Assembly: GCF_900166655.1 (NCBI RefSeq)
Contig: NZ_FVZB01000005.1
Span: 687,001 to 751,000 of the forward strand
Origin: Halobacillus hunanensis
Lineage (GTDB): Bacteria > Bacillota > Bacilli > Bacillales > Halobacillaceae
Length of the DNA stretch: 64,000 nucleotides
Reading direction: 5' to 3'
The notes beneath the pieces are model-generated. The model worked only from the letters and a program-made list of their open reading frames with translations, was not told where the DNA came from and did no database searches. Below are positions 12,166 to 31,775 of the stretch, one piece after another. Numbering within the stretch: the first letter of the stretch is position 1; every line of letters starts with the position of its first letter. The position numbers were made by a program, and so were the translations under genes.

Positions 12166-12235
12166 ATCGTTCTCACCTCTTTTGCTAGAATTAATGCCCG
12201 CTGCCATACCCTCTGACAACAGGCACTATAGTTGG

Positions 12236-13213: not shown

Positions 13214-13316
13214 TACAAACACTCCTTTAATAGTTTAGTCCCTGTGTACCTGTGCTGCAGCAGAAAGGTGGTGAGAAGGACTGATTAACATCATCGTACC
13301 GTTACCGTTGATCTAG

Positions 13317-13330
13317 TGTAAACGTTTCCA
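13317..13330 (-). promoter_or_regulatory. CcpA cre site upstream of the tct-tcuA operon
   Basis: TGTAAACGTTTCCA matches the catabolite-responsive element core (TGNAANCGNWNNCW). It lies between the response regulator gene and tctC, about 100 bp before tctC. Catabolite repression of the tricarboxylate operon is therefore expected. Confidence 0.75.
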
Positions 13331-13404
13331 AAATAATGTTTTTTTAAAATTTAAAAAACATTTTGTGCGTTTTGTTCACAAAATGTTCATACAACTCTAG
13401 TATG

Positions 13405-14085: not shown

Positions 14086-14102
14086 GAAACATCCTCTCCT
14101 TT

Positions 14103-15704
14103 TTAGGTGTTTTTCTTTATATGCTTAGGAAGTATAATGGTAAAAATGGTTCCTTCCTGTGCCCGACTGCTAATTTCGATGGAGCCTTCCAACATGTCTA
14201 CTTCCTCTTTTACATTGGCAAGTCCATATCCACGATCGTTCCCTTTTAGAGAAAACCCTTTCTCAAATATGCGTTCTCCGACACCGTCTTCTAATCCCTG
14301 ACCACCATCTGCTATCTCAAAGATAATGTCGTTCCCAAGGTCTGTAACAAAGAACGAGACATCTTTAGCCGGTTGTGCAGCAACCGCTTCAAATGCATTA
14401 TTGATTAAGTTTCCTAAAACCACAATCAGAGGTGAAAGTTGAATATGCGAAGGTAAAGGGTCCAGCGAACTTCCTTCCTCAATGGTGAAATTGATTTTCT
14501 TCTCAGAGGCTTTGGCAAATTTCCCAAGCAGGATCGCCTGAACTTTCTCATCGCGAATTTCCCTGAAGAACATAGATGTAACCTGCTCCTGAGTATGAGC
14601 TTCATCCTGAATTAATTGAATCGCTTGTTCGTATTTTCCGAGTTGGATCATTCCTAAAATCACATAAAGTTTACTGGTGAACTCATGAGCCTGAGCTCTG
14701 AGATCTTCGGAATACTGTCTGACTTCAGAAATCGCATCAATCATTTTTCGAATTTCAGTTTTATCTCTAAAACTGACAACCGTTCCCGTTCTTTGATATC
14801 CGGAAAAAATAGGGCTGCTATTGACGATGACCGTCTTATCTTTATATTGAAGTTCTTTATTGACGATCCCTTTTTCAGAATGAACCAAATCAAGCAATTG
14901 AGGTGACCTGATCACATCATGGATGTTGTGGTCCTCAATATGGTCCGGAAGGTCAAGGATCTCCCGTGCAGACAGGTTAATCATGGTAATGGTCCCATTA
15001 TGGTCAAAAGCGATCATTCCTTCTTTGACGGACTGTAATACAGCATTTCTCTCTCGATAGAGGGCAGATATTTCAAAGGGTTCAAGCCCGAGGGTGTCTT
15101 TGCGAATACTTCGGGCCAGGAAAATGCTGCCGGCAATTCCGATAAGAAAAACGGTACCTGAGGCCATGATGATTTTTTTAATATCAGCGGCAATCTCTTT
15201 ATGTATCGATTGCATTTGAAATGCCACTGCTACTGCGCCTTCTACTTTTTTATAATCGCCATAATCGATGATGATAGGAGCAATCCCTTTGAGCAATTGA
15301 TCGTCGCCATCCTTTGTCTTCAGGACATAATTGCTTCCGTAAACTAATGCCCGGTAGTGATCTTGAATAGGGACGGCTTCCGTTTTCTTCGGCCCGGCGT
15401 ACCCGTAGATGTCACCATCGCGGTTCACAATATTAATAGCTGAAGCTTCTACTTCATCCCTTATTTGATCAGCTAGGTGATCTATTTCATCTGTTGGTCT
15501 GTCAGACAGGAAAGATTGCTGGATAACCGGCATATAAGAGAGCGTTATTGCGGTTTGAACGGCCAGGTTCTCTGCATTCTCGACATCCTCATTTGATTCC
15601 ATATAAGCCACCATAAAGGTAACAAGGCTAAGAACTAACAGCAGCAGAAAAATAACTAACCCTAATATCTTAACTTGAAGCGACACTCTTAGAAGCTTTT
15701 CCAT
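14103..15704 (-). CDS. CitA/DcuS family sensor histidine kinase
   Basis: 533 residues. TM1 (about 13-35) and TM2 (about 175-195) bracket an extracytoplasmic PAS-like ligand domain. A cytoplasmic PAS domain (NAVLQSVKEGMIAFDHNG) follows, then the family's unusual H-box with phospho-His in LRAQAHEFTSKLYVILGMIQ. The HATPase domain shows VLGNLINNAFEAV (N-box), DGGQGLEDG and GYGLANVKEEV. It is the sensor for the adjacent response regulator. Citrate, malate or related acids are typical ligands of this family; its position beside tctABC-tcuA suggests tricarballylate or citrate. Confidence 0.92.
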   Translation of the reverse strand: MEKLLRVSLQVKILGLVIFLLLLVLSLVTFMVAYMESNEDVENAENLAVQTAITLSYMPVIQQSFLSDRPTDEIDHLADQIRDEVEASAINIVNRDGDIYGYAGPKKTEAVPIQDHYRALVYGSNYVLKTKDGDDQLLKGIAPIIIDYGDYKKVEGAVAVAFQMQSIHKEIAADIKKIIMASGTVFLIGIAGSIFLARSIRKDTLGLEPFEISALYRERNAVLQSVKEGMIAFDHNGTITMINLSAREILDLPDHIEDHNIHDVIRSPQLLDLVHSEKGIVNKELQYKDKTVIVNSSPIFSGYQRTGTVVSFRDKTEIRKMIDAISEVRQYSEDLRAQAHEFTSKLYVILGMIQLGKYEQAIQLIQDEAHTQEQVTSMFFREIRDEKVQAILLGKFAKASEKKINFTIEEGSSLDPLPSHIQLSPLIVVLGNLINNAFEAVAAQPAKDVSFFVTDLGNDIIFEIADGGQGLEDGVGERIFEKGFSLKGNDRGYGLANVKEEVDMLEGSIEISSRAQEGTIFTIILPKHIKKNT

Positions 15705-15951
15705 AAGGACCTCCGTTTTGTAAGTCTGAAGTTGAGCTTTTCTAGTATTCTAGCATATTCAATGATTGATAGTGAGCCCTGAGGAGCGATAAGAAGCAGC
15801 TAAGTTTGAGCAATTGTAATTGGATACAGTCCACTACACTCGGAAGTCATAATCCCGCAAAGTAGGAGAAGGTGAAAATGGATTCATAAGAAATCAGGAG
15901 TGTCATATAGTTTAGATAGAGTACAAATAATTTAGAACCTTCAGAAATCCA

Positions 15952-15981
15952 TTGACACCCATTTTACATCATTGATAATAT
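15952..15981 (+). promoter_or_regulatory. Sigma-A promoter with long leader upstream of the aminotransferase gene
   Basis: TTGACA at 15952-15957 and TAATAT at 15976-15981 with 18 bp between. It points toward the aminotransferase at 16196 and would give a leader of roughly 200 nt containing the hairpin at 16051-16118 and a cre site at 16158. The rest of the 15705-16195 gap holds no recognisable gene. Confidence 0.65.
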
Positions 15982-16050
15982 GTTTTTAAGCGAATCATTA
16001 ACTGTCAAATCTAACAGACTCTATTTATGAAGTAGAGCAATCCTTAGATT

Positions 16051-16118
16051 AGAGCCAGTTATATAGACGGGGAGTTCTATGTGCATTTCTCTGTCCATAT
16101 AGCTGGCTCTTTATTTTC
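16051..16118 (+). terminator. Leader hairpin with U-tract (attenuator or sRNA terminator)
   Basis: An 18-bp stem (AGAGCCAGTTATATAGAC with GTCCATATAGCTGGCTCT, two G-U pairs) encloses a 24-nt loop and is followed by TTATTTTCT. It lies between a good promoter and the aminotransferase start, so it either attenuates the operon or ends a short leader RNA of about 130 nt. I do not recognise a known riboswitch class. Confidence 0.7.
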
Positions 16119-16157
16119 TATCCATAAGTTTTTAAAGTATGGGTGTTTTATCAATGT

Positions 16158-16172
16158 TTGAAAGCGGTTTCT
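16158..16172 (+). promoter_or_regulatory. CcpA cre site before the aminotransferase operon
   Basis: TTGAAAGCGGTTTCT matches WTGNAANCGNWNNCW at every position. It is 24 bp upstream of the ATG and downstream of the leader hairpin, a position where bound CcpA would block elongation. Confidence 0.7.
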
Positions 16173-16195
16173 AGACTAATCTAAACGAGGGAGAG

Positions 16196-17551
16196 ATGAA
16201 AATGAAAGATTTATTCGAGTTGGACAAAAAACATTTTATTCACCCGACATCATCTATTAAGCAGCAGCAAGAGAAAGGTGCCAAATCTATTATGAAACAA
16301 GGAGATGGTGTCTATTTAACAGATACAGAAGGGAAAACGTATATCGATGCCATGTCATCGTTATGGAATGTCAATATTGGGCATGGGAGAAAAGAACTGG
16401 CTGAGGCGGCCAAGCAGCAAATGGAATCGCTGGCCTTTAGTTCGGCGTTTTCCACTTTCAGTAATGAACCAGCTATTCTGCTGGCGGAAAGAATCGCCCA
16501 ACTCGCACCAGAGGGTTTAAATGCGGTGTTTTTCACTTCTGGCGGTTCGGAGTCCAATGATTCAGCCTTCAAATTAATTCGTCACTACTGGAAGATAAAA
16601 GGTGAACCTGAGCGTGACAAAATTATTGCTCTTAAAAAAGGATATCACGGGGTAGCCACTGCTTCTACGAGTGCGACAGGTATCCCTCAGTTTTGGGAAA
16701 TGGCCGGTCTTACGGTTCCCGGTTTTATCCATGCAGAATCTCCTTATGAACGAGGTACGAAACCGTCGATCGATTCCATCCGTGAAGCCATTGAACGAGA
16801 AGGGCGGGAAAATATTGCTGCCTTTATTGCGGAACCGATTCAAGGTGCCGGCGGTGTTTTAGTTCCTCCTGAAGATTATTTTCAAGAAATCCGCCAGTTG
16901 TGTGACGATTATGGCATTTTGTTTGTGGCTGATGAGGTGATTACAGGATTTGGCCGGACCGGAAAGATGTTTGGACTCGAACATTCTGGGGTCATTCCAG
17001 ACATGATGACGTTTGCTAAAGGGGTAACGAGCGGCTATATTCCACTCGGCGGTGTTGTAGTATCGGATGCGATTCATAATGTATTAAAGGAAAAATCACC
17101 AGGTACGCTTTTTCACGGGTTTACATACAGCGGTCATCCAACAGCGGCGGCGGTGGCATTGAAAAACATTGACATCATTGAACGAGAAGGTCTTGTGACT
17201 AACTCAAAAGTGATGGGGAACGAATTGCTAAAAGGGTTCAGGAAAATTAAGAACGAGTTAAACATCGTGGGTGATGTACGTATGGTCGGTTTGCTTGGGG
17301 CGGTGGAACTCGTGGAGGACCCTGCGACGAACAAACGCTTTTCGCCTAATTTGCAAGTCGCGCCTAAAGTGATTGAAGCCCTGCATGAACGTGGGATCAT
17401 TTGTCGGGCAGTTACTTATGACAGCACGGATATCATTTGTTTTGCGCCGCCATTAATTTTGAACAAAGAACAAGTTCAAACAATCGTGGCAAAATTACAT
17501 GATGCGGTATTATCCGTACAGAAGCAGCTTGGTGATCGAGTGTCGTCATAA
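16196..17551 (+). CDS. Class III aminotransferase, omega-amino acid:pyruvate type (copy 1)
   Basis: 451 residues of the PLP fold-type I, class III aminotransferase family. Visible landmarks: substrate-loop LWNVNIGHG (about 57), PLP phosphate site TSGGSESND (about 113-121), KKGYHGVATAS, LFVADEVITGFGRTGK with the cofactor Asp, and Schiff-base lysine K275 in TFAKGVTSGY. Expected reaction: transfer of an omega-amine (beta-alanine, GABA, putrescine or similar) to pyruvate or 2-oxoglutarate. Two in-frame ATGs exist (16196, 16202); the second has better spacing from GAGGGAG. It heads a plus-strand group with an APC permease and a CoA-transferase, and is a paralogue of the gene at 23981. Confidence 0.88.
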   Translation: MKMKDLFELDKKHFIHPTSSIKQQQEKGAKSIMKQGDGVYLTDTEGKTYIDAMSSLWNVNIGHGRKELAEAAKQQMESLAFSSAFSTFSNEPAILLAERIAQLAPEGLNAVFFTSGGSESNDSAFKLIRHYWKIKGEPERDKIIALKKGYHGVATASTSATGIPQFWEMAGLTVPGFIHAESPYERGTKPSIDSIREAIEREGRENIAAFIAEPIQGAGGVLVPPEDYFQEIRQLCDDYGILFVADEVITGFGRTGKMFGLEHSGVIPDMMTFAKGVTSGYIPLGGVVVSDAIHNVLKEKSPGTLFHGFTYSGHPTAAAVALKNIDIIEREGLVTNSKVMGNELLKGFRKIKNELNIVGDVRMVGLLGAVELVEDPATNKRFSPNLQVAPKVIEALHERGIICRAVTYDSTDIICFAPPLILNKEQVQTIVAKLHDAVLSVQKQLGDRVSS

Positions 17552-17592
17552 GTCATTGCTAACTGCAAATTCCAAACTGGGAGGTCATCATC

Positions 17593-19038
17593 GTGCATGA
17601 TCAAAAACTAGTAAAGGTGCTTGGGAATAAAGATGTTCTCGCTCTTGCTTTTGGGGCAATGATTGGATGGGGCTGGGTCGTGACTGCGGGGCTGTGGATT
17701 ACCGAGGCAGGTTCGCTTGGAGCGATCCTTGCTTTCGCTTTAGGAGGGCTTCTCGTTACCTTTGTTGGCCTGACGTACGCCGAGCTAGCTTCAGCTCTCC
17801 CTCTGACTGGAGGGGAGCATGTGTACAGTTTTAAGGCGATGGGCAGGATAGCTTCGTTTGTTACCACGTGGTCGATTATCCTCGGCTATGTATCCGTCGT
17901 TGCTTTTGAGGCAGTGGCCCTGCCAACGGTTTTTGAGTACTTAATTCCAGGTTACAGCCAGGGGCATCTTTACACCATTGCTGGCTGGGACGTGACAGCG
18001 ACGTGGGCGGGAGTCGGTATTTTGGGGTCGATTTTAATTACATGGATTAATTATCGTGGCATAAAATTGACGACTTCGATCACGTTCATTTTAACACTGT
18101 TAATTATCATCGCCGGAATCTTATTAATCACCGGCGGTACAGCGGCAGGTAACGTACAAAATATGCAGCCGCTGTTTAATAAAGGGATGGCTGGATTATT
18201 GACCGTCATTATTATGACGCCATTTATGTTTGTAGGGTTCGATGTGATTCCGCAAGCTGCTGAGGAGATCAATCTTCCGCGCAAGAAAATTGGCCAGCTA
18301 TTAATCTTCTCTGTTCTGCTCGCTGTTACCTGGTATATTCTCGTTATTTTTGGGGTATCTCGGATCATGTCTCCATCAGCTATTCAGGAATCAGCATTGG
18401 TGACAGCCGATGCGATGGCAGCAGCATTTGGAGGCAGTACGCTTATGGGAAACATCCTCGTACTCGGCGGAATCGGCGGGATTCTAACAAGCTGGATCGG
18501 TTTCTATGTTGGAGGCAGCCGTGCTATTTACGCACTTGCGAAGGCGGGAATGCTGCCTAAATCACTGGGGGAACTTCATCCAAAGTACAACACACCATAT
18601 AAAGCGATTCTAGCAATCGGCATACTTTCCACGATCGCGCCATTGTTCGGCCGGCCCGCTCTCGTATGGTTAGTTGATGCGGGCGGGTTAGGACTAGTCG
18701 TGGCCTGGTTGATGGTAGCGGTCTCCTTTATCATCCTTCGGAAAAAGAGCCCTGACATGCATCGCCCATTCCGTTTGCGGGGAGGAACTACAATCGGCTG
18801 GATAGCTGTACTCATGTCGCTTGGCGTATGTGTGCTCTACATGCCAGGTATGCCTTCAGCCCTCATTTGGCCTTATGAATGGATTATCGTTCTCTCCTGG
18901 ATGGTGCTCGGAGCGGTTCTCTATAACATTTCAATCGCGAGATATGGAACAGAGAACTCTGATCACCATATGAATCAGGAGATAGATCGGGTCCTGAATG
19001 AGGACGATCCACACTCTGACATCTCTCACACAAGTTAA
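17593..19038 (+). CDS. APC family amino acid/amine permease
   Basis: 481 residues and about 12 TM helices. TM1 contains LAFGAMIGWGWVVTAGLW, the unwound glycine-rich substrate-binding helix of the amino acid-polyamine-organocation family, and the TM6 equivalent reads PFMFVGFDVIPQAAEEI. The start is GTG at 17593 behind GGGAGGTC. Placed 41 bp after the aminotransferase, it probably imports that enzyme's substrate, an amino acid or amine. The C-terminal tail is hydrophilic and acidic (VLNEDDPHSD). Confidence 0.87.
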   Translation: MHDQKLVKVLGNKDVLALAFGAMIGWGWVVTAGLWITEAGSLGAILAFALGGLLVTFVGLTYAELASALPLTGGEHVYSFKAMGRIASFVTTWSIILGYVSVVAFEAVALPTVFEYLIPGYSQGHLYTIAGWDVTATWAGVGILGSILITWINYRGIKLTTSITFILTLLIIIAGILLITGGTAAGNVQNMQPLFNKGMAGLLTVIIMTPFMFVGFDVIPQAAEEINLPRKKIGQLLIFSVLLAVTWYILVIFGVSRIMSPSAIQESALVTADAMAAAFGGSTLMGNILVLGGIGGILTSWIGFYVGGSRAIYALAKAGMLPKSLGELHPKYNTPYKAILAIGILSTIAPLFGRPALVWLVDAGGLGLVVAWLMVAVSFIILRKKSPDMHRPFRLRGGTTIGWIAVLMSLGVCVLYMPGMPSALIWPYEWIIVLSWMVLGAVLYNISIARYGTENSDHHMNQEIDRVLNEDDPHSDISHTS

Positions 19039-19147
19039 CAAAAAGTAGTCTTCAATCGTAATTTTGGCACCATAACATGATCAGTTTTTTATAAGAAAAA
19101 ATATTGAGTGCAGTGAAAATTGCACCTTCACATAGGAGTGTCTCGTA

Positions 19148-20332
19148 ATGAAGCAACCATTGGAAGGAATCAAAGTTCTCGATTTGTCACGTGTATTGGC
19201 CGGCCCACTGGGATCCATGCAGCTGGCTGATCTCGGCGCTGAAGTGATCCGTGTCGAAGCCCCTGGAGGCAAAGATGATATTCGCCATTGGTGGCCTTTT
19301 GTTGAAGAAGAAAGCACGTACTATCTATCAGCCAATCGTAATAAAAAATCGATGACCATTAATCTGAAGCAAGAAGAAGGAAAAGCCCTCTTTAAAAAAA
19401 TGGCAGCCCAGGCTGATGTGGTAATTGAAAATTTTAAAACAGGAACGTTGGATCGGCTTGGGTTAGGATATGACACACTGAAACAGCAGAAGGAAGATGT
19501 CATCCTTTGTTCGGTGACCGGTTACGGACAGACTGGTCCTTATAAGCATCTTCCTGGCTATGATCCTGTTATTCAAGCAGTTGGAGGGTTGATGGATATT
19601 ACCGGGGCCCCCGAGGGTGAAGCTACACGGGTGGGGACACCTGTCGTCGATATTATGACCTCCCACTATGTGGCCATCAGTGTGCTGGCGGCTTTAAGGA
19701 AACGTGATCTGACAGGGGAGGGAGAGCATATTGATTTGTCACTTCTTGATATTCAGGTCGCTTCCCTTGGCAACATATCCAGCAGTTACTTGTTAAAAGG
19801 TCATGTTTCTGAGCGAATGGGCAATGCCCATGGCAACATCACCCCATACGAGACATTTCATTGCGCCGACAAGCCGATTATGGTCGCTGCTGGAAATGAC
19901 CGGATGTTTTATCAGCTGGCAGAGGTAATGGGACACCCCGAATGGAAAGGGGACGGAAGGTTTAAGACAAATGCCAATCGAATTGAAAATAGGCAGGAAT
20001 TAAGAGATCTGTTGGAGAAGGAGTTTTTGAAAAGAGGTGCTGATGAATGGGAACAGCAGTTATCCTCTCGTAATATTCCGTGCGGACCTGTGAACAATGT
20101 GCAGCAAGTGTTTGACCATCCGCAAGTCAAAGCGAGAGATATGGTAGAAGTCAATGACCATCCTAAGCTCGGGAAGGTACGCACCGTACGTAATCCCATC
20201 AAATTTAAGCATACGAACATTGAAGCGAAGTCCCACCCTCCTATGTTAGGGGAGCATACGGCTGATTTATTGAAGGAATTTGGCTTATCAGAAAAGGAGG
20301 TTGCTGAACTTAAAAAAAAGGGGTCTATATAA
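19148..20332 (+). CDS. Family III (CaiB/BaiF) CoA-transferase
   Basis: 394 residues. The N-terminus reads PLEGIKVLDLSRVLAGPLG and the catalytic aspartate is D168 in RVGTPVVDIMTSHYVA, the position that forms the acyl-aspartyl intermediate in formyl-CoA transferase. NRNKKSMTINLKQEEG and ENFKTGTLDRLGLGYD are family landmarks. It moves CoA between carboxylic acids; with amine-catabolic neighbours a dicarboxylate such as glutarate or succinate is a reasonable acceptor, as in the SUGCT branch of the family, but this is inference. It sits 109 bp after the permease and 95 bp before the sigma-54 activator. Confidence 0.88.
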   Translation: MKQPLEGIKVLDLSRVLAGPLGSMQLADLGAEVIRVEAPGGKDDIRHWWPFVEEESTYYLSANRNKKSMTINLKQEEGKALFKKMAAQADVVIENFKTGTLDRLGLGYDTLKQQKEDVILCSVTGYGQTGPYKHLPGYDPVIQAVGGLMDITGAPEGEATRVGTPVVDIMTSHYVAISVLAALRKRDLTGEGEHIDLSLLDIQVASLGNISSSYLLKGHVSERMGNAHGNITPYETFHCADKPIMVAAGNDRMFYQLAEVMGHPEWKGDGRFKTNANRIENRQELRDLLEKEFLKRGADEWEQQLSSRNIPCGPVNNVQQVFDHPQVKARDMVEVNDHPKLGKVRTVRNPIKFKHTNIEAKSHPPMLGEHTADLLKEFGLSEKEVAELKKKGSI

Positions 20333-20427
20333 ATGTTTGTTCATGGTCTTTATTTCATCCGTTGAGGTGCCGAAATTCTGGCATTAAAGTGACGAAAATT
20401 GAGCGCATTTTTTAAGGGAACGGGGGT

Positions 20428-21819
20428 ATGGTGATGGCGAATGCGAAAGAAATGCTCCAGGCGATCTTAAGTACCATTGATGAAGGTATTCATGCAGTAG
20501 ATGCAAGTGGAGTGACGATCTTCTATAACCATATCGCTTCAAAGCTCGATGGTTTAGAGAGCAAGGAAGTGTTAGGAAAGCACTTATTAAGTAATTTTCC
20601 TTCCTTATCTACGGAAACAAGTACGTTAATGAAGGTCTGTCAGACAGGGGAGCCTATTTTCAACCAACATCAATCGTACCGTAACATTCGCGGCGTACTC
20701 GTGGATACCGTGAACACATCCTTGCCCATCAAGGTGAATGGTAAGCTAGTCGGGGCTGTGGAAATCGCCAAAGACTTAACGAGAATTAAGCAGTTATCGG
20801 AAAAACTGATCGATTTACAAGCGAGAATCGATACAACAAGCGGGCCGAAGAAGTCCGACAGCAGCAGTACGGGGGCCGTTTTTCACATGACTGATATTAT
20901 TACGAAAGACCCCAGTTTTCTTAAATTGAAATCAAGGGCTGAAAAGGTTGCTTCCACTACGTCACCGGTCTTAATTTATGGCGAAACAGGGACAGGGAAA
21001 GAGCTGCTCGTGCAATCGATTCATAATGCCTCACCGCGCCATAATCAGCCATTTATTGCCCAAAACTGTGCCGCAATCCCTTCTTCGCTGCTGGAAAGTA
21101 TTTTATTTGGTACCGCTAAAGGCAGCTACACAGGAGCCACAGACCGGCCAGGATTATTTGAACTGGCGGATGGAGGTACACTGTTTCTGGATGAACTGAG
21201 CAGCATGCCGCTCGATATTCAGGCTAAGCTGCTCAGAGTGTTGCAGAACGGTGTGATACGAAGAGTCGGCGGGACGAAAGAAAGGGCTTTGAACCTCCGA
21301 ATTATCGCTGCATTGAATGAACCGCCTGAAGTCTGTGTCCGGGAGAAGAGGCTGCGATCTGATCTATATTTTCGACTTAACGTAGTGCCGCTCCACATTC
21401 CAAAGTTAAAAGACAGACGTTGTGATATTCCGCTGTTAGTAGATCACTTTGTGCAAAAGTACAATTTCCAATTTGGCAAGCTCGTAACAAAGGTGGATGA
21501 AAGTGTAAAGGAGATGTTTCACCATTATGAATGGCCGGGAAATGTTCGTGAGTTAGAACATGCGATTGAATCAGCTATGAACATGGTGGAAGGGGATCGG
21601 ATCTTAACGGAGCACTTACCGCCGCATATTACTGAAAATTGTGCTGCGATGCCCCGTCCTCCCTTGCAGCCTCTTAGAAAAGTACTAATGGAAACGGAAG
21701 AACGACTGATCACCCAGGCGCTGCAGCAAACGAACGGCAACATTCAGCAAGCCGCTAAATTGCTGCAAATTCCCCGCCAAACCTTACAATATAAATCGAA
21801 TAAATTGAAGCTGTCGTAA
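20428..21819 (+). CDS. Sigma-54-dependent transcriptional activator (PAS-AAA+-Fis, RocR-like layout)
   Basis: 463 residues. A PAS sensor domain (about 5-120, AILSTIDEGIHAVDASGVT), then an AAA+ domain with Walker A GETGTGKE (185-192), sigma-54 contact loop GSYTGA (232-237), Walker B GGTLFLDEL and the RVGGTKERALNLRIIAA sensor region. The Fis-type helix-turn-helix is TNGNIQQAAKLLQIPRQTLQY at the C-terminus. The contact loop differs from the usual GAFTGA at two positions. It should activate the sigma-54 promoter 129 bp downstream of its stop, sensing an amino acid or amine. Start at 20428 or the ATG at 20434. A terminator follows at once. Confidence 0.92.
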   Translation: MVMANAKEMLQAILSTIDEGIHAVDASGVTIFYNHIASKLDGLESKEVLGKHLLSNFPSLSTETSTLMKVCQTGEPIFNQHQSYRNIRGVLVDTVNTSLPIKVNGKLVGAVEIAKDLTRIKQLSEKLIDLQARIDTTSGPKKSDSSSTGAVFHMTDIITKDPSFLKLKSRAEKVASTTSPVLIYGETGTGKELLVQSIHNASPRHNQPFIAQNCAAIPSSLLESILFGTAKGSYTGATDRPGLFELADGGTLFLDELSSMPLDIQAKLLRVLQNGVIRRVGGTKERALNLRIIAALNEPPEVCVREKRLRSDLYFRLNVVPLHIPKLKDRRCDIPLLVDHFVQKYNFQFGKLVTKVDESVKEMFHHYEWPGNVRELEHAIESAMNMVEGDRILTEHLPPHITENCAAMPRPPLQPLRKVLMETEERLITQALQQTNGNIQQAAKLLQIPRQTLQYKSNKLKLS

Positions 21820-21821
21820 GC

Positions 21822-21848
21822 AACCGCCGGAAATTCGGCGGTTTTTTT
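21822..21848 (+). terminator. Terminator of the sigma-54 activator gene
   Basis: AACCGCCG/CGGCGGTT stem of 8 bp with a 6-nt loop and a run of seven T, starting 3 nt after the stop codon. It separates the activator transcript from the sigma-54 promoter downstream. Confidence 0.9.
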
Positions 21849-21947
21849 ATGTCTTCTAACAAAATCACCTCTTGAATGAAATGTGAATAGTTTACAGTAA
21901 GCTGATTTTTCTTGTGTTATCAAGGTTTTTAACTATAGATCTATGTT

Positions 21948-21964
21948 TTGGCACGTAACTTGCT
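21948..21964 (+). promoter_or_regulatory. Sigma-54 (SigL) -24/-12 promoter
   Basis: TTGGCACGTAACTTGCT matches YTGGCACGNNNNTTGCW with the GG and GC dinucleotides 10 nt apart. It lies directly downstream of the sigma-54 activator gene and points toward the decarboxylase at 22413, leaving a leader of about 440 nt. A palindrome ATAGATCTAT sits at 21935-21944; the activator's own binding sites were not identified with confidence. Confidence 0.85.
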
Positions 21965-22051
21965 TTAGTAAATATGTGAGACTCATAGTTCCATTTTTTC
22001 AATAGGCGCTTTTCGTAAGTTTCGTCGCTCTTTAACCCTGAGGCTGAGAAA

Positions 22052-22184
22052 GGTTGATTTTCACTTCGGGCAGGCGCTTTCCCGGGCAACACTACAGCTT
22101 CCTCGGAAGCAAAAAGTGCTTCCTGCGAGATCTTCAACTGTTGCTTTTCCCTCAGGAGTCGACTGCCCTACGCTTCAATCAACC
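22052..22184 (+). repeat. 133-bp interspersed repeat-like element with 8-bp inverted ends
   Basis: The element is bounded by GGTTGATT (22052-22059) and AATCAACC (22177-22184), exact inverted repeats, with inner complementary blocks GGGCAG and CTGCCC. The interior carries the CTTCCTCGG...CTGCGAG...CTCAGGAGTC series that I associate with a family of structured intergenic repeats in many Bacillaceae genomes; copy number cannot be checked here. It has no open reading frame and lies in the leader between the sigma-54 promoter and the decarboxylase gene. The remaining leader sequence to 22412 shows no gene. Confidence 0.6.
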
Positions 22185-22412
22185 GCCATACCAGCAAAGC
22201 AAATACTAAGACTCCTTTAGAAGAATGAGACCACACAGTGAGATAACTGCAAGTGAGGGAGCTTAGCGTTAGCCCAAGGAAAGCGCAGTGTATTTCCAAA
22301 ACCGTCTAGTACGCCCCAGTTTATTGTTCTGCACCACCAATAATCTTTTTAGAAAACAGCCTTTCATATTAACAAGTGTGCCGGAACTTCGAAAGTGAAA
22401 GGAGAGGGTGAA

Positions 22413-23915
22413 ATGGTGTTAAAAGCTTCAACAGATCATGAAGAATCACATTCATCAATGGATCATACAGCGGCTCCGCTTTATGAGGCGCTTTGCTCGT
22501 ATGAAAAGAGTCAACGAACATCTTTACACGTTCCTGGACATAAGGATGGGCGTGTATTTGACGAAGAAGCTCTAGGTCGGTTTGCGAACATTTTAAAAAT
22601 TGATGCGACCGAATCTGTAGGGATTGATGGGCTTCATCATCCCACTAATTTCATCGCAGATGCCCAAGCGCTAGCTGCCGATGCCTTTGGAGCTGATCAC
22701 ACATTTTTTCTGATTGGCGGGAGTACAGTTGGAAATATCGGGGCTGCCTTAACTTTATGCAGTCCAGGTGATCAAATTATTGTTCAGCGCAATATGCATA
22801 AATCTGTTTTTCACGGGCTGATGGTAGCTGGGGCTCATCCTATTTTTATTGCTCCTTCAATTGAACCAACTACTAAAGTAGCCAAGGTTTCTGATCTTTC
22901 GTATATCGAAAAAGCATTGAAAGAAAATCCTGATGCAAAGGGAGTATGGATTACCAACCCGAATTATTACGGCATGAGTCAAGACATTTCTTCATTAGCT
23001 AAAGCTTGCCATCAGGCAGGCGTTCCTCTTGTCGTAGATGAAGCCCACGGCCCCCACTTCGGTCAGGCGGAAGAGCTCCCGCCATCAGCGCTTTCACAAG
23101 GAGCCGATCTTGTTGTCCAGTCTACTCATAAAATGTTAACAGCGATGACAATGGCTTCCATGCTTCATGTAAAAGGGAACCTTGTGTCTCGTGAGCGGCT
23201 GGGACAGGTGCTCGGAATGATTCAATCGACAAGTCCCTCCTATCCGCTGTTAGCCTCCCTTGATTTAGCGAGACGGTTTTTAGTTATAAAAGGACGATCC
23301 CAAATTAAAAAAACAGTGGAGCGTCTGGAAAAAAGAAGACGGTCGCTTGATTTGGAATTGCAGGCGCTTTCAATATGGGGTGGGAGTCACGCGGTTCATC
23401 ACAGGGATCCATTGAAATGGATTATATCAAGTAAGGATCAGACGATTTCCGGATTTCAATTGCTCGATGAATTTTATGATCTAGACTGTACGGCAGAGAT
23501 TTGCGATCCCAGAAATGTCGGCTTTTTATTTTCTATCGACGAACGCGATGAAGATATCGAGGTCGTGGTCTCTAAGATTAAAGAGATGGATAAAAAGCTG
23601 CAAGCCAGGGATAATGGCAGCCCAGCTGATAAATCTGATATGGTTCTTTTTGAAAAAGAAGGGACCCTTCACAAGCCGGCTTTATCATTGCATGAGGCCT
23701 TTCACAAACCGCGTAAGCAAGCTGACTTACAAGAAGCCGTTGGATGTATATGCGGTGAAATGGTTCTTCCCTATCCACCAGGCATCCCCCTGTTGACGCC
23801 TGGGGAAAAGATTACCGCCGATCATGTCAGTACGATTCGTCGATTGAAGGATATGGGAGCTTATTTTCAAAGCCCCTCTGACGATAGTATGAGATCTTTA
23901 TATGTACTCTGTTAG
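22413..23915 (+). CDS. Orn/Lys/Arg decarboxylase-family PLP enzyme (SpeA/YaaO-like)
   Basis: 500 residues from the ATG at 22413, behind AAAGGAGAGGGTGAA; the GTG at 22395 is inside that ribosome site. Fold-type I layout of the Bacillus-type basic amino acid decarboxylases: LHVPGHKDGR near 40, GLHHPTNFIADAQ, SST-like phosphate site LIGGSTVGN, VVDEAHGPHFG and the PLP lysine K240 in QSTHKML. The C-terminal domain has GEMVLPYPPGIPLLTPGE, also typical. Predicted to decarboxylate lysine, arginine or ornithine to cadaverine, agmatine or putrescine. It is the first gene behind the sigma-54 promoter, which suggests a catabolic rather than housekeeping role. Confidence 0.87.
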   Translation: MVLKASTDHEESHSSMDHTAAPLYEALCSYEKSQRTSLHVPGHKDGRVFDEEALGRFANILKIDATESVGIDGLHHPTNFIADAQALAADAFGADHTFFLIGGSTVGNIGAALTLCSPGDQIIVQRNMHKSVFHGLMVAGAHPIFIAPSIEPTTKVAKVSDLSYIEKALKENPDAKGVWITNPNYYGMSQDISSLAKACHQAGVPLVVDEAHGPHFGQAEELPPSALSQGADLVVQSTHKMLTAMTMASMLHVKGNLVSRERLGQVLGMIQSTSPSYPLLASLDLARRFLVIKGRSQIKKTVERLEKRRRSLDLELQALSIWGGSHAVHHRDPLKWIISSKDQTISGFQLLDEFYDLDCTAEICDPRNVGFLFSIDERDEDIEVVVSKIKEMDKKLQARDNGSPADKSDMVLFEKEGTLHKPALSLHEAFHKPRKQADLQEAVGCICGEMVLPYPPGIPLLTPGEKITADHVSTIRRLKDMGAYFQSPSDDSMRSLYVLC

Positions 23916-23980
23916 CTCAACAGGGTATGTTGCGGAGCTGGATTTTTTAGCAAAAACTATATAATCAGGAGGTTTTATCC

Positions 23981-25360
23981 ATGACAGATCAATTATATCC
24001 TGCAAAACAGTCCGAGTTAGAAGAATTAGATAAACGACACTACCTGCATCCGACTACGATTCCTAAAGTTCATGCCGAGCAAGGTCCGAAACTCACTTTT
24101 TCAGAAGGCGAAGGCATATACGTACGGGATTTAAATGGTGAAACCTATATTGACGGGCTTTCCATGCTGTGGAATGTCAACTTGGGACACGGACAGCAAG
24201 AGCTTGCCGAAGTGGCGAAAGAGCAAATGACGAAACTGGCTTTCAGTTCGTCCTTTGCTGGTTATTCCAATGAACCTGCTGTCAGACTGGCTGAGAAATT
24301 AGCAGCGCTTGCACCGGGAGATCTAAATTCCGTTTTCTACACGTCGGGCGGTTCAGAATCGAATGATACAGCCTTTAAATTATCTCGTTTCTACTGGTCG
24401 ATGAAAGGTAAGCCTGAGAAAAAGAAAATTATTAGTATTAAGAACGGTTATCATGGAGTCACGATTGCGGCGCAGACCGCGACGGCGATCCCGCTCTTCC
24501 ATGATTTCGCAGGCTCAAACATTTCAGATGTATTCCACGCTAATCCGCATCTTGTCAATTGTGAACGAGGCGATAAAAATGATCCTCATTATGAAAGTTC
24601 TATTCGAGGTATTGTGGAAAAAGAGGGAGCTGATACAATCGCTGCCGTTATTCTAGAGCCTGTCCAGGGGTCTGGTGGGGTTCACGTTCCTCCAGAAGGA
24701 TATTTGGAAGCGGTACGAGAATTATGTAATGAATACGGAATTTTAATGATAGCGGATGAAGTGATTTGTGGATTCGGACGAACGGGTAAAATGTTCGGCG
24801 TGCAGAACTGGGGTGTTATTCCTGATTTAATGAGCGTGGCCAAAGGGATTTCAAGCGGCTACTCCCAGCTGGGAGCTGTATTGATCAAAGAAAACATTCG
24901 GGATGTGCTCGTCCAGTATGATCAAGTGCTGGCTCATGGTTTTACCTACAGCGGCCATCCGACAGCGTGTGCAGTGGCTATGAAAAATATTGAAATTATC
25001 GAGCGAGACCAAATTGTAGCTAACACGAAGAACATGGAGTTTGAACTTCAGGCAGGATTTGACTTTTTGAAAGATAAACACCCTACCGTCACCAAAACAA
25101 GAGCAGTGGGGTTATTAGCAGGAATTGAACTGTACGCCGACCGCGACCGCGGCATACCATTCGATCCATCGGTTCTTCCATCAGCGGAAGTGGTAGAAGA
25201 ATGCTTCACACGTAAACTAATCTTGAGAGCCCTTTCGTCAAATGTGGGAAGGAATATTGTCGCTATCGCACCACCGCTGATCATTAACAAACAACAAATC
25301 GAAGATATTATCACGATTTTAGACGATTCGATTTCCGTATTCGAAAAAAAGTTTTGTTAA
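23981..25360 (+). CDS. Class III aminotransferase, omega-amino acid:pyruvate type (copy 2)
   Basis: 459 residues, clearly paralogous to the gene at 16196 (shared LWNVNLGHG, FYTSGGSESNDTAFKLSRFYW, ADEVICGFGRTGKMFG). The Schiff-base lysine is K288 in SVAKGISSGY. It lies 65 bp after the decarboxylase with a strong TCAGGAGG site. The natural substrate would be the diamine produced by the decarboxylase, or the amino acid made from it. The two copies differ in the substrate-entry region (around HANPHLVNCERGD here), so they may act at successive steps of one pathway. Confidence 0.88.
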   Translation: MTDQLYPAKQSELEELDKRHYLHPTTIPKVHAEQGPKLTFSEGEGIYVRDLNGETYIDGLSMLWNVNLGHGQQELAEVAKEQMTKLAFSSSFAGYSNEPAVRLAEKLAALAPGDLNSVFYTSGGSESNDTAFKLSRFYWSMKGKPEKKKIISIKNGYHGVTIAAQTATAIPLFHDFAGSNISDVFHANPHLVNCERGDKNDPHYESSIRGIVEKEGADTIAAVILEPVQGSGGVHVPPEGYLEAVRELCNEYGILMIADEVICGFGRTGKMFGVQNWGVIPDLMSVAKGISSGYSQLGAVLIKENIRDVLVQYDQVLAHGFTYSGHPTACAVAMKNIEIIERDQIVANTKNMEFELQAGFDFLKDKHPTVTKTRAVGLLAGIELYADRDRGIPFDPSVLPSAEVVEECFTRKLILRALSSNVGRNIVAIAPPLIINKQQIEDIITILDDSISVFEKKFC

Positions 25361-25393
25361 AAAGGAATCACAGGAAAGGAGCCGGAATGGATC

Positions 25394-26476
25394 ATGAAGA
25401 GGCTGGTACTCCAAGGCACTCCAAAAGAAATAGGCAGGCAGCATGGAAGTCAGGGAAAGGCGGAAGTGTTGAAAAGCTTGCAAACCTACGAAAAACTCTT
25501 TCACGGATATAAAGGCATCAGTTGGGAGGAGGCAAAGACACTTGCCCGTGAGCACTTGCCGGCAATTGAACGATATGACCGTGAGCTGATTGAAGAAATG
25601 GAAGGCGTCGCTGAAGGGGCGGGGGTAGAATTCGACGATATCCTCGCTCTGAACGCCCGTAGCGAAATCGCCTTAGCCAACTATAAAGGGGCCTCCTTCT
25701 CCGATGGCTGCACGGCCATTGCGGTCACGGCTCCGCTTATCACAGAGACGATTATTGGCCAAAATTGGGATTGGAAACCTGACCAAAAACAAAGTCTTCT
25801 GCTGCTCGAAATCCATAACCAGTCAAAACCTGTCATAACAATGGTAACGGAAGGTGGCATCATTGGGAAAATCGGCTTTAATTCTGCTGGGATCGGACTT
25901 TGCTTTAATGCCCTGCTGACAGATAAAAAGTCGAATGAAATCCCCATTCATCTCGGATTGCGGGGGGTGTTAAATTCAAGTTCTCTCCACGAAGCCATAT
26001 CGAAAATTAAAGGCGGTCAAATCGCCGCCGCTGCCAGTTTTATAGTTGGGATTGATGAAGGAAATGGGAAAGGGATGGCATTGAATGTGGAAGTCTCTCC
26101 ACTTGGCATTGATATGGTGGGAGGTGAGGGAGGGAAATTGGTGCACACCAACCACTTAATCTCCCCCATTCTGAAACAGAAGCTTACTGACACAAGTGAA
26201 TTTGTCTTCGATGATTCGATGATCCGCAAGAAAAGGGCAGAACAGTTGATCAATACCAGAATTGCCAGACAGCAGCCTATCGACGAAGCAGTATTCAGGG
26301 AATGGTTCTCAGATTCCTTTAATGCGCCAAATTCTATCGACCATTTTGAAAATATCCGCGCCCCGGAACATCGTCGCATGGAAACTGTGTTCTCTATCAT
26401 TATGAATCTATCACAGCGAAAGGTTTGGCTTTGCGAAGGACATCCTTCTAAGGAAAAGTTTGAAGAAATTCAGTAA
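25394..26476 (+). CDS. C45 (acyl-CoA:6-APA acyltransferase-like) Ntn hydrolase
   Basis: 360 residues of the C45/isopenicillin N acyltransferase-like family. The autocatalytic nucleophile is Cys106 in FSDGCTAIAV; processing would give a short alpha and a long beta chain. Other landmarks are GTPKEIGRQHGSQGKAEV at the N-terminus, GQNWDWKPDQ after the nucleophile and KIGFNSAGIGLCFNALLTD. Such enzymes hydrolyse or transfer acyl groups on amide nitrogen. It lies 33 bp after the aminotransferase in the sigma-54-driven unit, so an N-acylated amine or amino acid is the likely substrate. The start ATG 25394 is preceded by AAAGGAGCCGG. No signal peptide. Confidence 0.85.
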   Translation: MKRLVLQGTPKEIGRQHGSQGKAEVLKSLQTYEKLFHGYKGISWEEAKTLAREHLPAIERYDRELIEEMEGVAEGAGVEFDDILALNARSEIALANYKGASFSDGCTAIAVTAPLITETIIGQNWDWKPDQKQSLLLLEIHNQSKPVITMVTEGGIIGKIGFNSAGIGLCFNALLTDKKSNEIPIHLGLRGVLNSSSLHEAISKIKGGQIAAAASFIVGIDEGNGKGMALNVEVSPLGIDMVGGEGGKLVHTNHLISPILKQKLTDTSEFVFDDSMIRKKRAEQLINTRIARQQPIDEAVFREWFSDSFNAPNSIDHFENIRAPEHRRMETVFSIIMNLSQRKVWLCEGHPSKEKFEEIQ

Positions 26477-26591
26477 GGAACAGCTATTGCCGTTTATCGG
26501 AGGGAGAACGAAAACAAGCTTTCTCCTCCTCTATTAAGAGACGTCTCCATCCATACTTGTCCAAACTCATTGTGAAAAAGGAGAGAAAATT

Positions 26592-27245
26592 ATGGGCCAT
26601 ACTCATCAAAAGCATTCTGATAAACAGATTATTATCCGTAACACCGAACTTGCGGATCTGGATGATGTAGCAGCTTTATCTCAACAAAGCTTTGGTTCAG
26701 AGGTAGCCTTTACCCAGGAACACTTTGCTAGCCAAATTACGCTTTTTCCACAAGGACAAATACTGGCAGAAGTCGAGGGTCGAATCGTTGGAACGTCCTC
26801 ATGCCTGATCGTTAATTTTGACGATTACAAAGGCAAGCACTCTTATGAGGAAATATCGGATCACGGCTATATCCGCAATCACAATCCAGAAGGGGTTAAC
26901 CTTTGTGGGGTAGAAGTCTGTGTTCATCCCGAATACAGACAGCTAAAGCTTGGACGTCGCCTGTATGAAGCTAGAAAAAAGCTTTGTCAGGATTTAAATT
27001 TAAAAAGCATCGTGATCGGCGGCCGGATTCCTCATTACCACAAATACGCAGTTCAAATGTCTGTAGAGGAATACGCGAATCAGGTCATCCAGAGGAATAT
27101 TTATGATCCTGTCATGACCTTTCAATTAAAAAACGGCTTTGTGCTCAATGAGATTATTCCCGGCTACTTACAAGGAGATGAAGAATCTCTGGAATATGCG
27201 ACTTCGATGGAGTGGCATAACGAAGACTATAAGCCTCGGGGATAA
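26592..27245 (+). CDS. Stand-alone GNAT N-acetyltransferase of the YhcX N-domain type
   Basis: 217 residues. A GNAT core runs from IIIRNTELADLDDVAAL through NLCGVEVCVHPEYRQLKLGRRLYEARKKL, which contains the acetyl-CoA pyrophosphate loop (R-x-x-K/G-L-G-R-R-L). Then come GGRIPHYHKYAVQMSVEEYA and YDPVMTFQLKNGF, a block I associate with the GNAT half of YhcX-like proteins, where it is fused to a nitrilase-type amidohydrolase. Here the nitrilase half is missing. Last gene of the sigma-54 unit, with AAAGGAGAG before ATG. It probably acetylates the amine handled by its neighbours. Confidence 0.83.
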   Translation: MGHTHQKHSDKQIIIRNTELADLDDVAALSQQSFGSEVAFTQEHFASQITLFPQGQILAEVEGRIVGTSSCLIVNFDDYKGKHSYEEISDHGYIRNHNPEGVNLCGVEVCVHPEYRQLKLGRRLYEARKKLCQDLNLKSIVIGGRIPHYHKYAVQMSVEEYANQVIQRNIYDPVMTFQLKNGFVLNEIIPGYLQGDEESLEYATSMEWHNEDYKPRG

Positions 27246-27270
27246 GTGCTTATAGTCTGTAACGCTATTT

Positions 27271-27477
27271 TTACGTTAGGGAAGAATCTTTGTCGTTAAG
27301 GCAGAATTTATGATATGAAGGGGCGAATCGATGGCCACTAGGGCCGAATCTTCGAACCCCAAGGTCGAACCTTTGATGAAAAAAGGTAGAGTTACTTCAA
27401 TTTAGGGTCGAACCATTAACGATAAGGGTAGAATTACTTCATTTCAGGGGAGAATCCTTCAAATTTCAAACAGAATA
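27271..27477 (-). repeat. Degenerate intergenic array with 21-bp period, ten units
   Basis: The GAAT/GAAC core recurs at 27284, 27304, 27325, 27346, 27367, 27389, 27410, 27431, 27452 and 27473, spacings of 20-22 bp. Units read like TAGGGTCGAACC with variable tails; on the minus strand the core is RTTCKRCCYTA. Individual units are not identical and no frame is open through them. It lies between the convergent GNAT and peroxiredoxin genes. Confidence 0.8.
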
Positions 27478-27495
27478 CCGCACCGTCCTGGAGAT

Positions 27496-27531
27496 AAAAA
27501 GCCCTGATCCTCCATAGATGATCAGGGCTTT
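27496..27531. terminator. Terminator between convergent GNAT and peroxiredoxin genes
   Basis: AAAGCCCTGATC pairs with GATCAGGGCTTT (12 bp) around a 10-nt loop; A5 on the left and TTTCTC on the right make it usable in both directions, mainly for the peroxiredoxin gene on the minus strand. Confidence 0.88.
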
Positions 27532-27538
27532 CTCATGA

Positions 27539-28045
27539 TTACTTAAAATTTTCACTAATATACTTGATGATCTTTCCAATTTCCTTCGGGTTTGGGCGGC
27601 CGAATGGGCTAGTCTGCCGCTGCTGGTAAAGAAGATTTCCTCTTTCATCTGTTAAGAAATATGCCGGTTCACCATGGGTGCCATGGTCTTCATATGGATC
27701 TTCCGTACCGTGATAGTAGACATCATATTGGGCTAATACTGTCAGGTCGCTATCCGATAATACGGGAAACGTAAACCCGTGCTTATCGACCATCTTTTTC
27801 AGACTCTCAAGATTATCTGTGGAGATAGTGGTTAACTTTACTTTTTTATCATCAAAATGGCTCTTGCTTTCTTCAAATCCTTTTAATTCTTCCATACAAG
27901 CCGGGCACCATGATCCTCTGAAGTAGATGAGTAAATGCCAGTATCCTTCATTGGCCTGTCGATAATCTTCAAAGGTATAATCTTCTCCTGAAACAGCCGG
28001 CAATGTAAAGTTAGGGATTTTTTCCCCTAATTTAAACACGCTCAT
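27539..28045 (-). CDS. Peroxiredoxin-like (AhpC/TSA, redoxin) protein
   Basis: 168 residues, thioredoxin-fold. The N-terminus FKLGEKIPNFTLPAVSGEDYTFEDY is the usual AhpC/TSA entry. The active-site segment is IYFRGSWCPACMEEL with two cysteines spaced as Cys-Pro-Ala-Cys, thioredoxin-like rather than classical 2-Cys peroxiredoxin, and the cis-Pro region is HGEPAYFLTDERGNLLY. Cytoplasmic: no signal peptide. Likely a thiol peroxidase or thiol-disulfide reductase. It has a GGAGG ribosome site, its own terminator, and a 77-bp gap from the thiamine operon upstream. Confidence 0.85.
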   Translation of the reverse strand: MSVFKLGEKIPNFTLPAVSGEDYTFEDYRQANEGYWHLLIYFRGSWCPACMEELKGFEESKSHFDDKKVKLTTISTDNLESLKKMVDKHGFTFPVLSDSDLTVLAQYDVYYHGTEDPYEDHGTHGEPAYFLTDERGNLLYQQRQTSPFGRPNPKEIGKIIKYISENFK

Positions 28046-28122
28046 AAGGAACCTCCTTCAGTTAATAGGATATATAACCCTATACCCGATTTCATAACAT
28101 TTAAATATAGAGTATCTGGTAT

Positions 28123-30689: not shown

Positions 30690-30709
30690 ATATGGGTCTC
30701 CTTTTAAAT

Positions 30710-31705: not shown

Positions 31706-31775
31706 TCGGTTTCCTCCTCAAAAAAAATCGATATGTTAACGCGAATGTTATGAGAAGCAGGGGCTGTAGAACATT

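Follow-up and report, generated by a model that had tools for sequence, protein, structure and literature searches.

How is the run of amine and amino acid catabolic genes in a 64,000-nucleotide (nt) stretch of Halobacillus hunanensis DNA controlled, and which compound does it degrade? The stretch, called the window below, covers positions 687,001 to 751,000 of contig NZ_FVZB01000005.1 (assembly GCF_900166655.1), and all positions given here are those of the window. An initial annotation had described 16196-27245 as a sigma-54-controlled catabolic locus of eight genes. A structured RNA leader with its own promoter (15952-16119) lies just outside that range and was missed there. With the leader included, 16000-27245 is probably a two-tier lysine catabolic locus, in which one tier is governed by the RNA leader and the other by sigma-54. 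On balance we favour the view that the leader (16000-16119) represents a new riboswitch class for 5-aminovalerate or glutarate, which would coordinate the catabolism of lactams, 5-aminovalerate and glutarate across many bacilli and here would also feed the sigma-54 activator of the decarboxylase gene.

The leader starts behind a sigma-A-like promoter (Table 1), whose TTGACA is kept in the related genomes G007 and G008; the promoter pattern was found in 6 of the 28 RNA copies finally collected, that of the window included. The predicted fold energy of the leader is -43.3, against -26.1 in shuffled sequences (z = -4.4). The window, G007 and G008 share the RNA block at 92% identity, with the flanks in G008 diverged. 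Forty-four genomes of the family were searched for a 22-nt word with at most three mismatches, which gave four further true copies. Three of them are in G008, two before DUF3870-LhgO and one before a YtcJ-like gene; the fourth, in G036, likewise precedes a YtcJ-like gene. The reversed-pattern control of this search gave 3 matches, and L199 and L203 (3 mismatches) were judged false by eye. A covariance model (R1) was built from 4 near-identical copies and finds the RNA in L204, L205 and L198 at 44-47 bits. When 397 genomes of the order were scanned with it (E ≤ 0.1), 31 matches in 30 genomes were returned. Twenty-two were kept, and nine (L223, L229, L231-L236 and one row of G233) look false and were left out by eye, as the RNA core and the terminator were seemingly absent. 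E-values alone did not decide the selection, as L223 was dropped with 3.4e-4 and L230 kept with 0.0122. The final alignment (A9) holds 28 copies from 25 genomes, namely the 22 R1 matches and six from the close-relative and word searches; an antisense match in L031 (E = 0.0085) was excluded.

In A9, 93.0% of the cells pair, versus 84.8% after shuffling and 23-41% for slid structures, whereby the alignment was fitted to its own model, which favours apparent pairing. Both sides change in 11 of the 18 pairs (43 such cells versus 12.2 in shuffles), and none of 500 shuffles reached any of the five measures applied. The element is a conserved structured 5' leader with covariation in P2 (4/6 pairs) and P3 (7/7) and none in P1 (0/5). 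At one P3 pair AU, GC, CG and GU occur, and at the next CG, UA, GC and UG. Rfam 15 gave no match at gathering score in the leader (whole-window scan) or, for 20 other loci, where the RNA lies; three sub-threshold matches in the leader, the best at E = 0.48, were to unrelated families, and none was plausible. A second model (R2) found four further copies (E = 3e-5 to 0.002), which lie as second RNA copies within or immediately behind gene clusters that already have one (L237 1176-1236, L243 6731-6788, L245 8546-8605 and L250 8386-8445), one of them directly 5' of the L243 permease gene.

The expression platform was examined with two pattern tests. Combined, they place the 3' strand of P1 in the 5' arm of an intrinsic terminator in 28/28 copies, so that P1 and terminator are mutually exclusive. 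In 24 of the 28, the P1 3' strand pairs with the 3' arm of the terminator; the other four show CCAG...CTGG and a T run. For the window leader, the terminator fold is the more stable prediction (-43.0 versus -27.0 with the aptamer enforced); read-through requires a ligand or a protein that keeps P1 formed. From this arrangement of P1 and terminator an ON switch is predicted, the direction to be expected where catabolic genes follow.

The genes behind the RNA copies belong largely to one pathway. AT1, GabT, the CoA-transferase, a GcdH-like gene (glutaryl-CoA-dehydrogenase-like), CsiD, LhgO, CapA/B and DUF3870 were defined as core genes. At least one core gene follows on the same strand in 19/28 copies (16/28 within 1.5 kb) versus 0/8 weak matches, where the gene list was fixed after the downstream genes had been seen and the reference proteins were taken from the window and the RNA loci themselves. 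The weak matches are the eight left-out R1 matches with loci, read over 1.5 kb each, and form no independent control for the terminator; five of the 28 copies have about 1.5 kb of downstream sequence only. AT1 is found downstream of the RNA in the window, G007, G008, G401, G382 and G030, GabT in G150, G246 and G214, and the CoA-transferase with a GcdH-like gene and DUF3870 in G246 and G136. CsiD and/or LhgO follow in G150, G351, G086, G391 and G008 (twice), and caprolactamase-like CapA/CapB in G311, G222, G370 and G382, with CapA also seen in G389. A YtcJ-like gene and/or an SSS symporter is present in G030, G192, G413, G036 and G008, and a DctA-like symporter (by eye) in G188. One regulon copy each passes the NCBIfam models for glutarate dioxygenase GlaH/CsiD (442.7, cut-off 333), L-2-hydroxyglutarate oxidase (593.2, cut-off 299) and 4-aminobutyrate transaminase (625.2, cut-off 506.65). 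Nothing was recognised behind the copies in G082, G121, G226 and G412; the first three correspond to L252, L226 and L230, and in L252 a very short Cys-rich open reading frame (ORF) follows (by eye).

Which ligand would connect these genes? A lactamase would convert valerolactam to 5-aminovalerate, GabT-type enzymes together with succinate semialdehyde dehydrogenase (SSADH) lead on to glutarate, and glutarate is consumed by CsiD-LhgO or by CoA-transferase and GcdH. 4-Aminobutyrate (GABA) alone would leave CsiD, LhgO and GcdH unexplained. In our judgement 5-aminovalerate is the leading candidate, if a tentative one, glutarate is a possible ligand, and a compound other than these two is unlikely.

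The same architecture would also suit an attenuator bound by a protein (antiterminators of PyrR, ANTAR or LicT type) instead of a metabolite. A simple P1-P2-P3 hairpin overlapping a terminator fits protein-dependent antitermination too, and it is chiefly the stems P1 and P2 that are conserved. Two properties of the alignment count against a riboswitch: P1, the basis of the switch model, is nearly invariant, without a covarying pair and with its outermost pair broken in 5/27 copies, and few unpaired letters are fixed (A70 in 26 and C50 in 24 of the distinct copies, besides A19 and C73), the other unpaired positions varying more. Because of these two properties the riboswitch was rated lower and the protein attenuator higher. 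The latter is nevertheless rather unlikely, as no single regulator gene is common to the 20 long loci (by eye) and all 27 distinct copies have A19 and C73, both of them unpaired.

Glutarate as the end product of the locus, as first proposed, is supported by the similarity of the CoA-transferase, by its GcdH-like neighbours in other genomes and by the genes of the RNA regulon. The best curated model for the CoA-transferase is NF052585 (succinate-glutarate CoA-transferase), and its best solved relative is 9br7, a succinate-hydroxymethylglutarate CoA-transferase (341.1 bits). Orthologues of 66-76% identity were found in 4 other genomes (397 searched, E ≤ 1e-170, matches without G007 and G008); in two of them, G390 and G371, the orthologue adjoins a glutaryl-CoA-dehydrogenase-like gene. 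An acyl-CoA dehydrogenase encoded elsewhere in the H. hunanensis genome is 78-80% identical to these two neighbours. All three share the motif [FY]RTAxSVHTGL, whose arginine we take to be that of glutaryl-CoA dehydrogenase, and the motif is absent from the seven other H. hunanensis acyl-CoA dehydrogenases aligned (8 of the 12 found were aligned in all). In a PDB search with the H. hunanensis and G390 proteins, the top match was the acyl-CoA dehydrogenase 4l1f, followed by 3mpi, a glutaryl-CoA dehydrogenase.

At the other end of the route, a basic amino acid had been suggested as the substrate of the decarboxylase, for which gene order now supports lysine. The protein matches the OKR_DC_1 domain at 258.8 bits (cut-off 27) and does not pass the curated LdcC model (127.4 versus 968 bits); it is a shorter form. 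Its subfamily is rare: at E ≤ 1e-150 it was detected in 6/397 genomes, H. hunanensis included, and further in G007 and G008. The order act1 (the sigma-54 activator gene), decarboxylase, permease was found in 5/5 genomes outside the genus. The permease of L033 passes NCBIfam NF008094 (746.7, cut-off 735), tabulated as an amino acid permease model, which we take to be that of the lysine permease LysP, and the permeases 3' of the decarboxylase in the other four genomes are 81-91% identical to it. To judge from these matches, the permease is probably LysP; because a probable lysP gene follows the decarboxylase in all five genomes, lysine is supported as the substrate, and the enzyme is probably a lysine decarboxylase.

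Sigma-54 control, the second tier, was likewise supported by comparison with relatives. The sequence TGGCACGTAACTTGC at 21949-21963 is the sole zero-mismatch -24/-12 match in the window. With up to two mismatches, 62 matches were counted against a shuffle mean of 47.5 and a largest value of 61; hence weaker matches mean little. A match of at least 10/11 was present at 8/8 decarboxylase loci and, in relatives, in 15/16 gaps between the second activator gene, act2, and AT2 (reverse strand 0/16), a count that takes in one genome twice (L046 and L066). The -24/-12 promoter and an AAA+ activator are thus both conserved in relatives. Promoter and decarboxylase start lie about 465 nt apart because a dispersed repeat sits between them; ten further partial copies of this repeat (75-92% identity) occur in the genome. 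An in-frame GTG at 22395 lies 5' of the decarboxylase start at 22413. At 23901-24000 of the window no match of at least 10/11 was found, so that AT2-C45-GNAT should here be transcribed from the promoter of the decarboxylase gene.

The eight ORFs were found open on the + strand at the coordinates first given, and profile searches confirmed the families named for them. A lack of co-occurrence in related genomes, which would have refuted the initial annotation, was not observed, as the full set recurs there: G007 and G008 hold the eight genes in the same order within the series AT1-APC-CoA-transferase-act1-decarboxylase-NhaC1-NhaC2-act2-AT2-C45-aldehyde dehydrogenase-GNAT, with the C45 gene of G008 split into two ORFs (L044 1358-2442). 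In G004 and G005 the part NhaC2-act2-AT2-C45-aldehyde dehydrogenase-GNAT is present and the first half does not adjoin it. The single-strand gene set regarded as unusual is therefore real as to its genes, but it is a shortened form of the two sigma-54 operons seen in G007 and G008. A second -24/-12-like site marks the junction of decarboxylase and AT2 in G007, and none is present at 23915-23981 of the window. Genes of the NhaC kind, act2 and the aldehyde dehydrogenase gene were not among the window ORFs of 12000-32000; the best matches in the whole genome reach 49% for NhaC2 and 48% for the aldehyde dehydrogenase (NhaC1 and act2 were not searched genome-wide). Their loss from the window would be the simplest reading of this comparison. 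One native eight-gene sigma-54 operon was rejected because of the two activators in G007 and G008 and the genes missing from the window. In G007 a zinc alcohol dehydrogenase gene (by eye; L031 4170-5303) stands between a two-component system and AT1 and is absent from the window and G008. That the leader is a relic of this lost gene was rejected, since the RNA follows the gene in G007 and G008 has the RNA without it.

The same losses could mean that the window locus is decaying, its second half having become non-functional after gene losses and the insertion of the repeat behind the sigma-54 promoter. The missing aldehyde dehydrogenase, antiporters and second activator would agree with this, as would the position of the repeat between promoter and decarboxylase. 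We consider decay unlikely, given that none of the eight ORFs still present is interrupted, that the promoter matches without a mismatch and that the genome has other aldehyde dehydrogenases (best 48%).

For the last two genes, the initial annotation had assumed acylation by the GNAT protein and deacylation by the C45 protein as protection and release. The C45 protein matches its proenzyme family model at 266.8 bits (cut-off 85), and G105, C106 and T107 are invariant in 40 sequences, as in an Ntn hydrolase. Its predicted structure (predicted local distance difference test, pLDDT, 92.5) is nearest to isopenicillin N acyltransferase, followed by acid ceramidase and N-acylethanolamine acid amidase. 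From 358 confirmed places of C45 relatives, 80 were kept, 43 loci at ≥ 52% identity and 37 below; some loci come from one genome. A GNAT gene (≥ 40% identity) lies within 4 kb of C45 in 34/43 loci of the first group and in 0/37 of the second. Within the same distance, the 43 loci contain act2 in 13, NhaC2 in 16, AT2 in 17 and the aldehyde dehydrogenase gene in 25 cases, and over the whole fetched loci Pot-type ABC genes in 22, an FAD oxidase cluster in 24 and a PatA-type cluster in 7. In L096, the members tested match the PotA and PotD types, and one passes the model for the putrescine aminotransferase PatA (770.6, cut-off 612). Judged by this context, the module to which C45 and GNAT belong is amine-catabolic. 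The second protein is confirmed as a GNAT, with the correction that it is without the carbon-nitrogen hydrolase domain present in longer relatives. By fold (model pLDDT 88.7) and profile, CurA, SxtA and GphF rank ahead of true acetyltransferases; the closest solved relatives are thus GNAT-like decarboxylases and not amine N-acetyltransferases, which leaves acyl protection and release unproven. The intermediate on which C45 and GNAT act is probably acylated, either a diamine or an amino acid; this is the weakest part of the explanation.

It is possible, though we hold it tentatively, that AT2-C45-GNAT with NhaC and the aldehyde dehydrogenase forms an acyl-protected diamine pathway of the Puu kind, in which an acyltransferase and C45 would replace gamma-glutamylputrescine synthetase and hydrolase, and which would serve polyamines in general and have been recruited for cadaverine. 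The linkage of GNAT to C45, the addition of Pot-type ABC genes, FAD oxidase and PatA in some loci (L096) and the fold of C45, like that of the three enzymes named above, agree with this, as does the result that no glutamine-synthetase homologue was found among the ORFs of 89 loci. The decarboxylase-like GNAT and the 9/43 C45 loci without GNAT nearby do not. C45 as gamma-glutamyl hydrolase of a Puu-like pathway was rejected for the lack of a glutamine-synthetase homologue in the same ORFs. Alternatively, the GNAT protein could itself be a decarboxylase of CoA thioesters (malonyl-CoA type), and aminopropyl amines could be degraded by the module via beta-alanine and malonate semialdehyde. The top five Foldseek matches (2ref, 7uci with two chains, 6mfc and 2ree) point this way, and both aminotransferases match the omega-aminotransferase AptA, which presumably takes beta-alanine. 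These AptA scores (340.9 and 335.8) lie below the cut-off of 500, and we regard this route as very unlikely. In L045 an alanine dehydrogenase gene (by eye; 13656-14810) lies directly 3' of the AT2-C45-aldehyde dehydrogenase-GNAT module, with the same cluster in 10 loci, which suits pyruvate as amino acceptor. In L072 a histone-deacetylase-family gene (PF00850, 3549-4664) was noted 6 kb from the C45 module; it is perhaps an acetylpolyamine amidohydrolase.

Besides the two properties of the RNA alignment and the late choice of the core gene list, several results weigh against the two-tier lysine locus and its RNA regulon. For 9/28 copies no core gene was seen in the downstream sequence examined: four have a YtcJ-like gene and/or SSS symporter, one the DctA-like symporter, and four nothing recognised. 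The CoA-transferase of the window does not pass NF052585 (371.7 versus 750 bits), and the CoA-transferase and CapA/B proteins of the regulon also fall short of the curated cut-off of whichever model fits them best. For the GcdH-like protein of L243, acryloyl-CoA reductase (397.5, cut-off 640) ranks above glutaryl-CoA dehydrogenase (378.9, cut-off 470), and in two of the four other genomes, G248 and G174, the CoA-transferase orthologue is found among sugar-acid-type genes (by eye). The window lacks the aldehyde dehydrogenase, and act1 carries GSYTGA in place of the sigma-54 contact motif GAFTGA, which is present in act2 of G007 (L031). Finally, model R2 detected no RNA copy in the C45 loci searched (L065-L113, L118, L122-L126 and L128), so that among the loci examined RNA and C45 module are neighbours in the window, G007 and G008 only.

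For the two-tier locus, which remains the preferred reading, the following mechanism is proposed. A transcript from the sigma-A-like promoter would run through the 62-nt aptamer and then meet the terminator. The ligand, probably 5-aminovalerate or glutarate, would stabilise P1 (AACUG/CAGUU) and thereby sequester the terminator 5' arm, and read-through would turn on AT1, the APC permease and the CoA-transferase, as well as act1, provided that the transcript crosses a 95-nt gap. Act1 and sigma-54 would then activate the lysine decarboxylase gene and with it, in this strain, AT2-C45-GNAT, which would have been brought behind the decarboxylase by a deletion. Lysine would be converted by the decarboxylase to cadaverine, cadaverine via 5-aminopentanal to 5-aminovalerate by an aminotransferase and an aldehyde dehydrogenase encoded elsewhere, and 5-aminovalerate via glutarate semialdehyde to glutarate by the second aminotransferase and an SSADH-type enzyme. 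The CoA-transferase would activate glutarate to glutaryl-CoA, from which the product of the GcdH-like gene elsewhere in the genome would form crotonyl-CoA. AT1 has amine transaminase 6fyq as its best solved relative (728.5 bits).

Table 1. Features of the locus, in window coordinates, with the basis of each assignment
Feature	Position	Strand	Basis
Sigma-A-like promoter, TTGACA 15952-15957, 18-nt spacer, TAATAT 15976-15981	15952-15981	+	direct reading
Conserved structured RNA, candidate aptamer; P1 AACUG/CAGUU, P2 AUCUA/UAGAU, P3 CUCUA../..UAGAG	16000-16061	+	alignment, covariance model
Intrinsic terminator, 5' arm containing the P1 3' strand (CCAGUU), mutually exclusive with P1	16051-16119	+	fold and pattern
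AT1, class III aminotransferase for amines/omega-amino acids, substrate probably 5-aminovalerate or cadaverine	16196-17551	+	profile match, solved relative
APC-family amino acid/amine permease	17593-19038	+	profile matches
CoA-transferase family III, closest to succinate-glutarate CoA-transferase	19148-20332	+	best curated model, solved relative
act1, PAS-AAA+-Fis sigma-54 activator, GSYTGA replacing GAFTGA	20428-21819	+	ORF and profile matches
-24/-12 sigma-54 promoter TGGCACGTAACTTGCT	21949-21964	+	pattern search, comparison with relatives
Dispersed repeat between sigma-54 promoter and decarboxylase gene	22047-22371	.	genome comparison; absent in G007, G008
Orn/Lys/Arg decarboxylase-fold enzyme, probable lysine decarboxylase	22413-23915	+	domain match, gene context
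Junction holding two NhaC-family antiporters and the second sigma-54 activator in G007/G008	23915-23981	+	locus comparison
AT2, class III aminotransferase	23981-25360	+	profile matches
C45 autoproteolytic Ntn hydrolase/acyltransferase, Asp-Gly-Cys106-Thr	25394-26476	+	family model, alignment, predicted structure
Junction holding an SSADH-like aldehyde dehydrogenase in G004, G005, G007, G008	26476-26592	+	locus comparison
GNAT-fold protein, nearest solved relatives GNAT-like decarboxylases CurA, GphF, SxtA	26592-27245	+	profile and fold search

Around the locus, three further elements were noted. Divergent from the RNA-controlled operon, 11716-15704 (- strand) encodes a tripartite tricarboxylate transporter and a CitA/DctS-like two-component system (by eye), possibly a dicarboxylate uptake system. 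A thiamine pyrophosphate (TPP) riboswitch at 31823-31934 (- strand) lies 5' of a thiamine-type ABC transporter operon (28896-31705; operon by eye), and an S-adenosylmethionine (SAM) riboswitch (S box) is located at 50449-50558 (- strand, 91.6 bits).

The proposed pathway as such is known; its regulation and the C45-GNAT module appear to be new. For Escherichia coli, PMC6265302 describes the route LdcC/CadA-PatA-PatD-GabT-GabD-CsiD-LhgO, which leads from cadaverine and 5-aminovalerate to glutarate. The window locus resembles it in the decarboxylase, the two aminotransferases, the aldehyde dehydrogenases and glutarate, and CsiD and LhgO belong to the same RNA regulon in other genomes. It differs in the proposed glutarate exit via CoA-transferase and a GcdH-like enzyme, in the control by sigma-54 and an RNA leader and in the extra C45 and GNAT genes. 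Sigma-54 control of lysine (KamR-kamA) and GABA (GabR-gabT) catabolism is described for Bacillus thuringiensis in PMC4428206; there, too, a sigma-54 activator and a -24/-12 promoter accompany amino acid catabolic genes, but lysine 2,3-aminomutase is used instead of the decarboxylase-cadaverine route. The logic of modification, oxidation or transamination, dehydrogenation and release is like that of putrescine gamma-glutamylation in the Puu pathway, as outlined in PMC9397018; unlike Puu, the C45 module has C45 in place of PuuD and lacks a glutamine-synthetase homologue, as stated for the 89 loci. The GNAT protein shares fold and best profile match with CurA, GphF and SxtA and is here free-standing in an amine-catabolic operon. 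Like transcription-terminating riboswitches for TPP and SAM, the leader combines a conserved aptamer, a terminator and a regulon around one pathway; unlike the known cis-regulatory RNAs of Rfam, it matches no Rfam 15 family at gathering score, and its ligand is proposed from the regulon genes. In a search of the open-access literature, no paper among the matches listed ties an RNA switch to csiD, lhgO or DUF3870, and no title listed describes the locus.

If the reading is true, sensing of an omega-amino acid or a C5 dicarboxylate by a riboswitch would in our judgement mean a new ligand type, and an RNA sensor would stand over a pathway for which protein regulators, CsiR and GcdR among them, are used elsewhere (PMC6667623). 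A sensor for 5-aminovalerate or glutarate, both described as plastics monomers, would also be gained. The C45-GNAT module provides candidates for the catabolism of acylated amines, and the RNA regulon ties DUF3870 and the YtcJ-like amidohydrolases, whose roles are unassigned, to this pathway.

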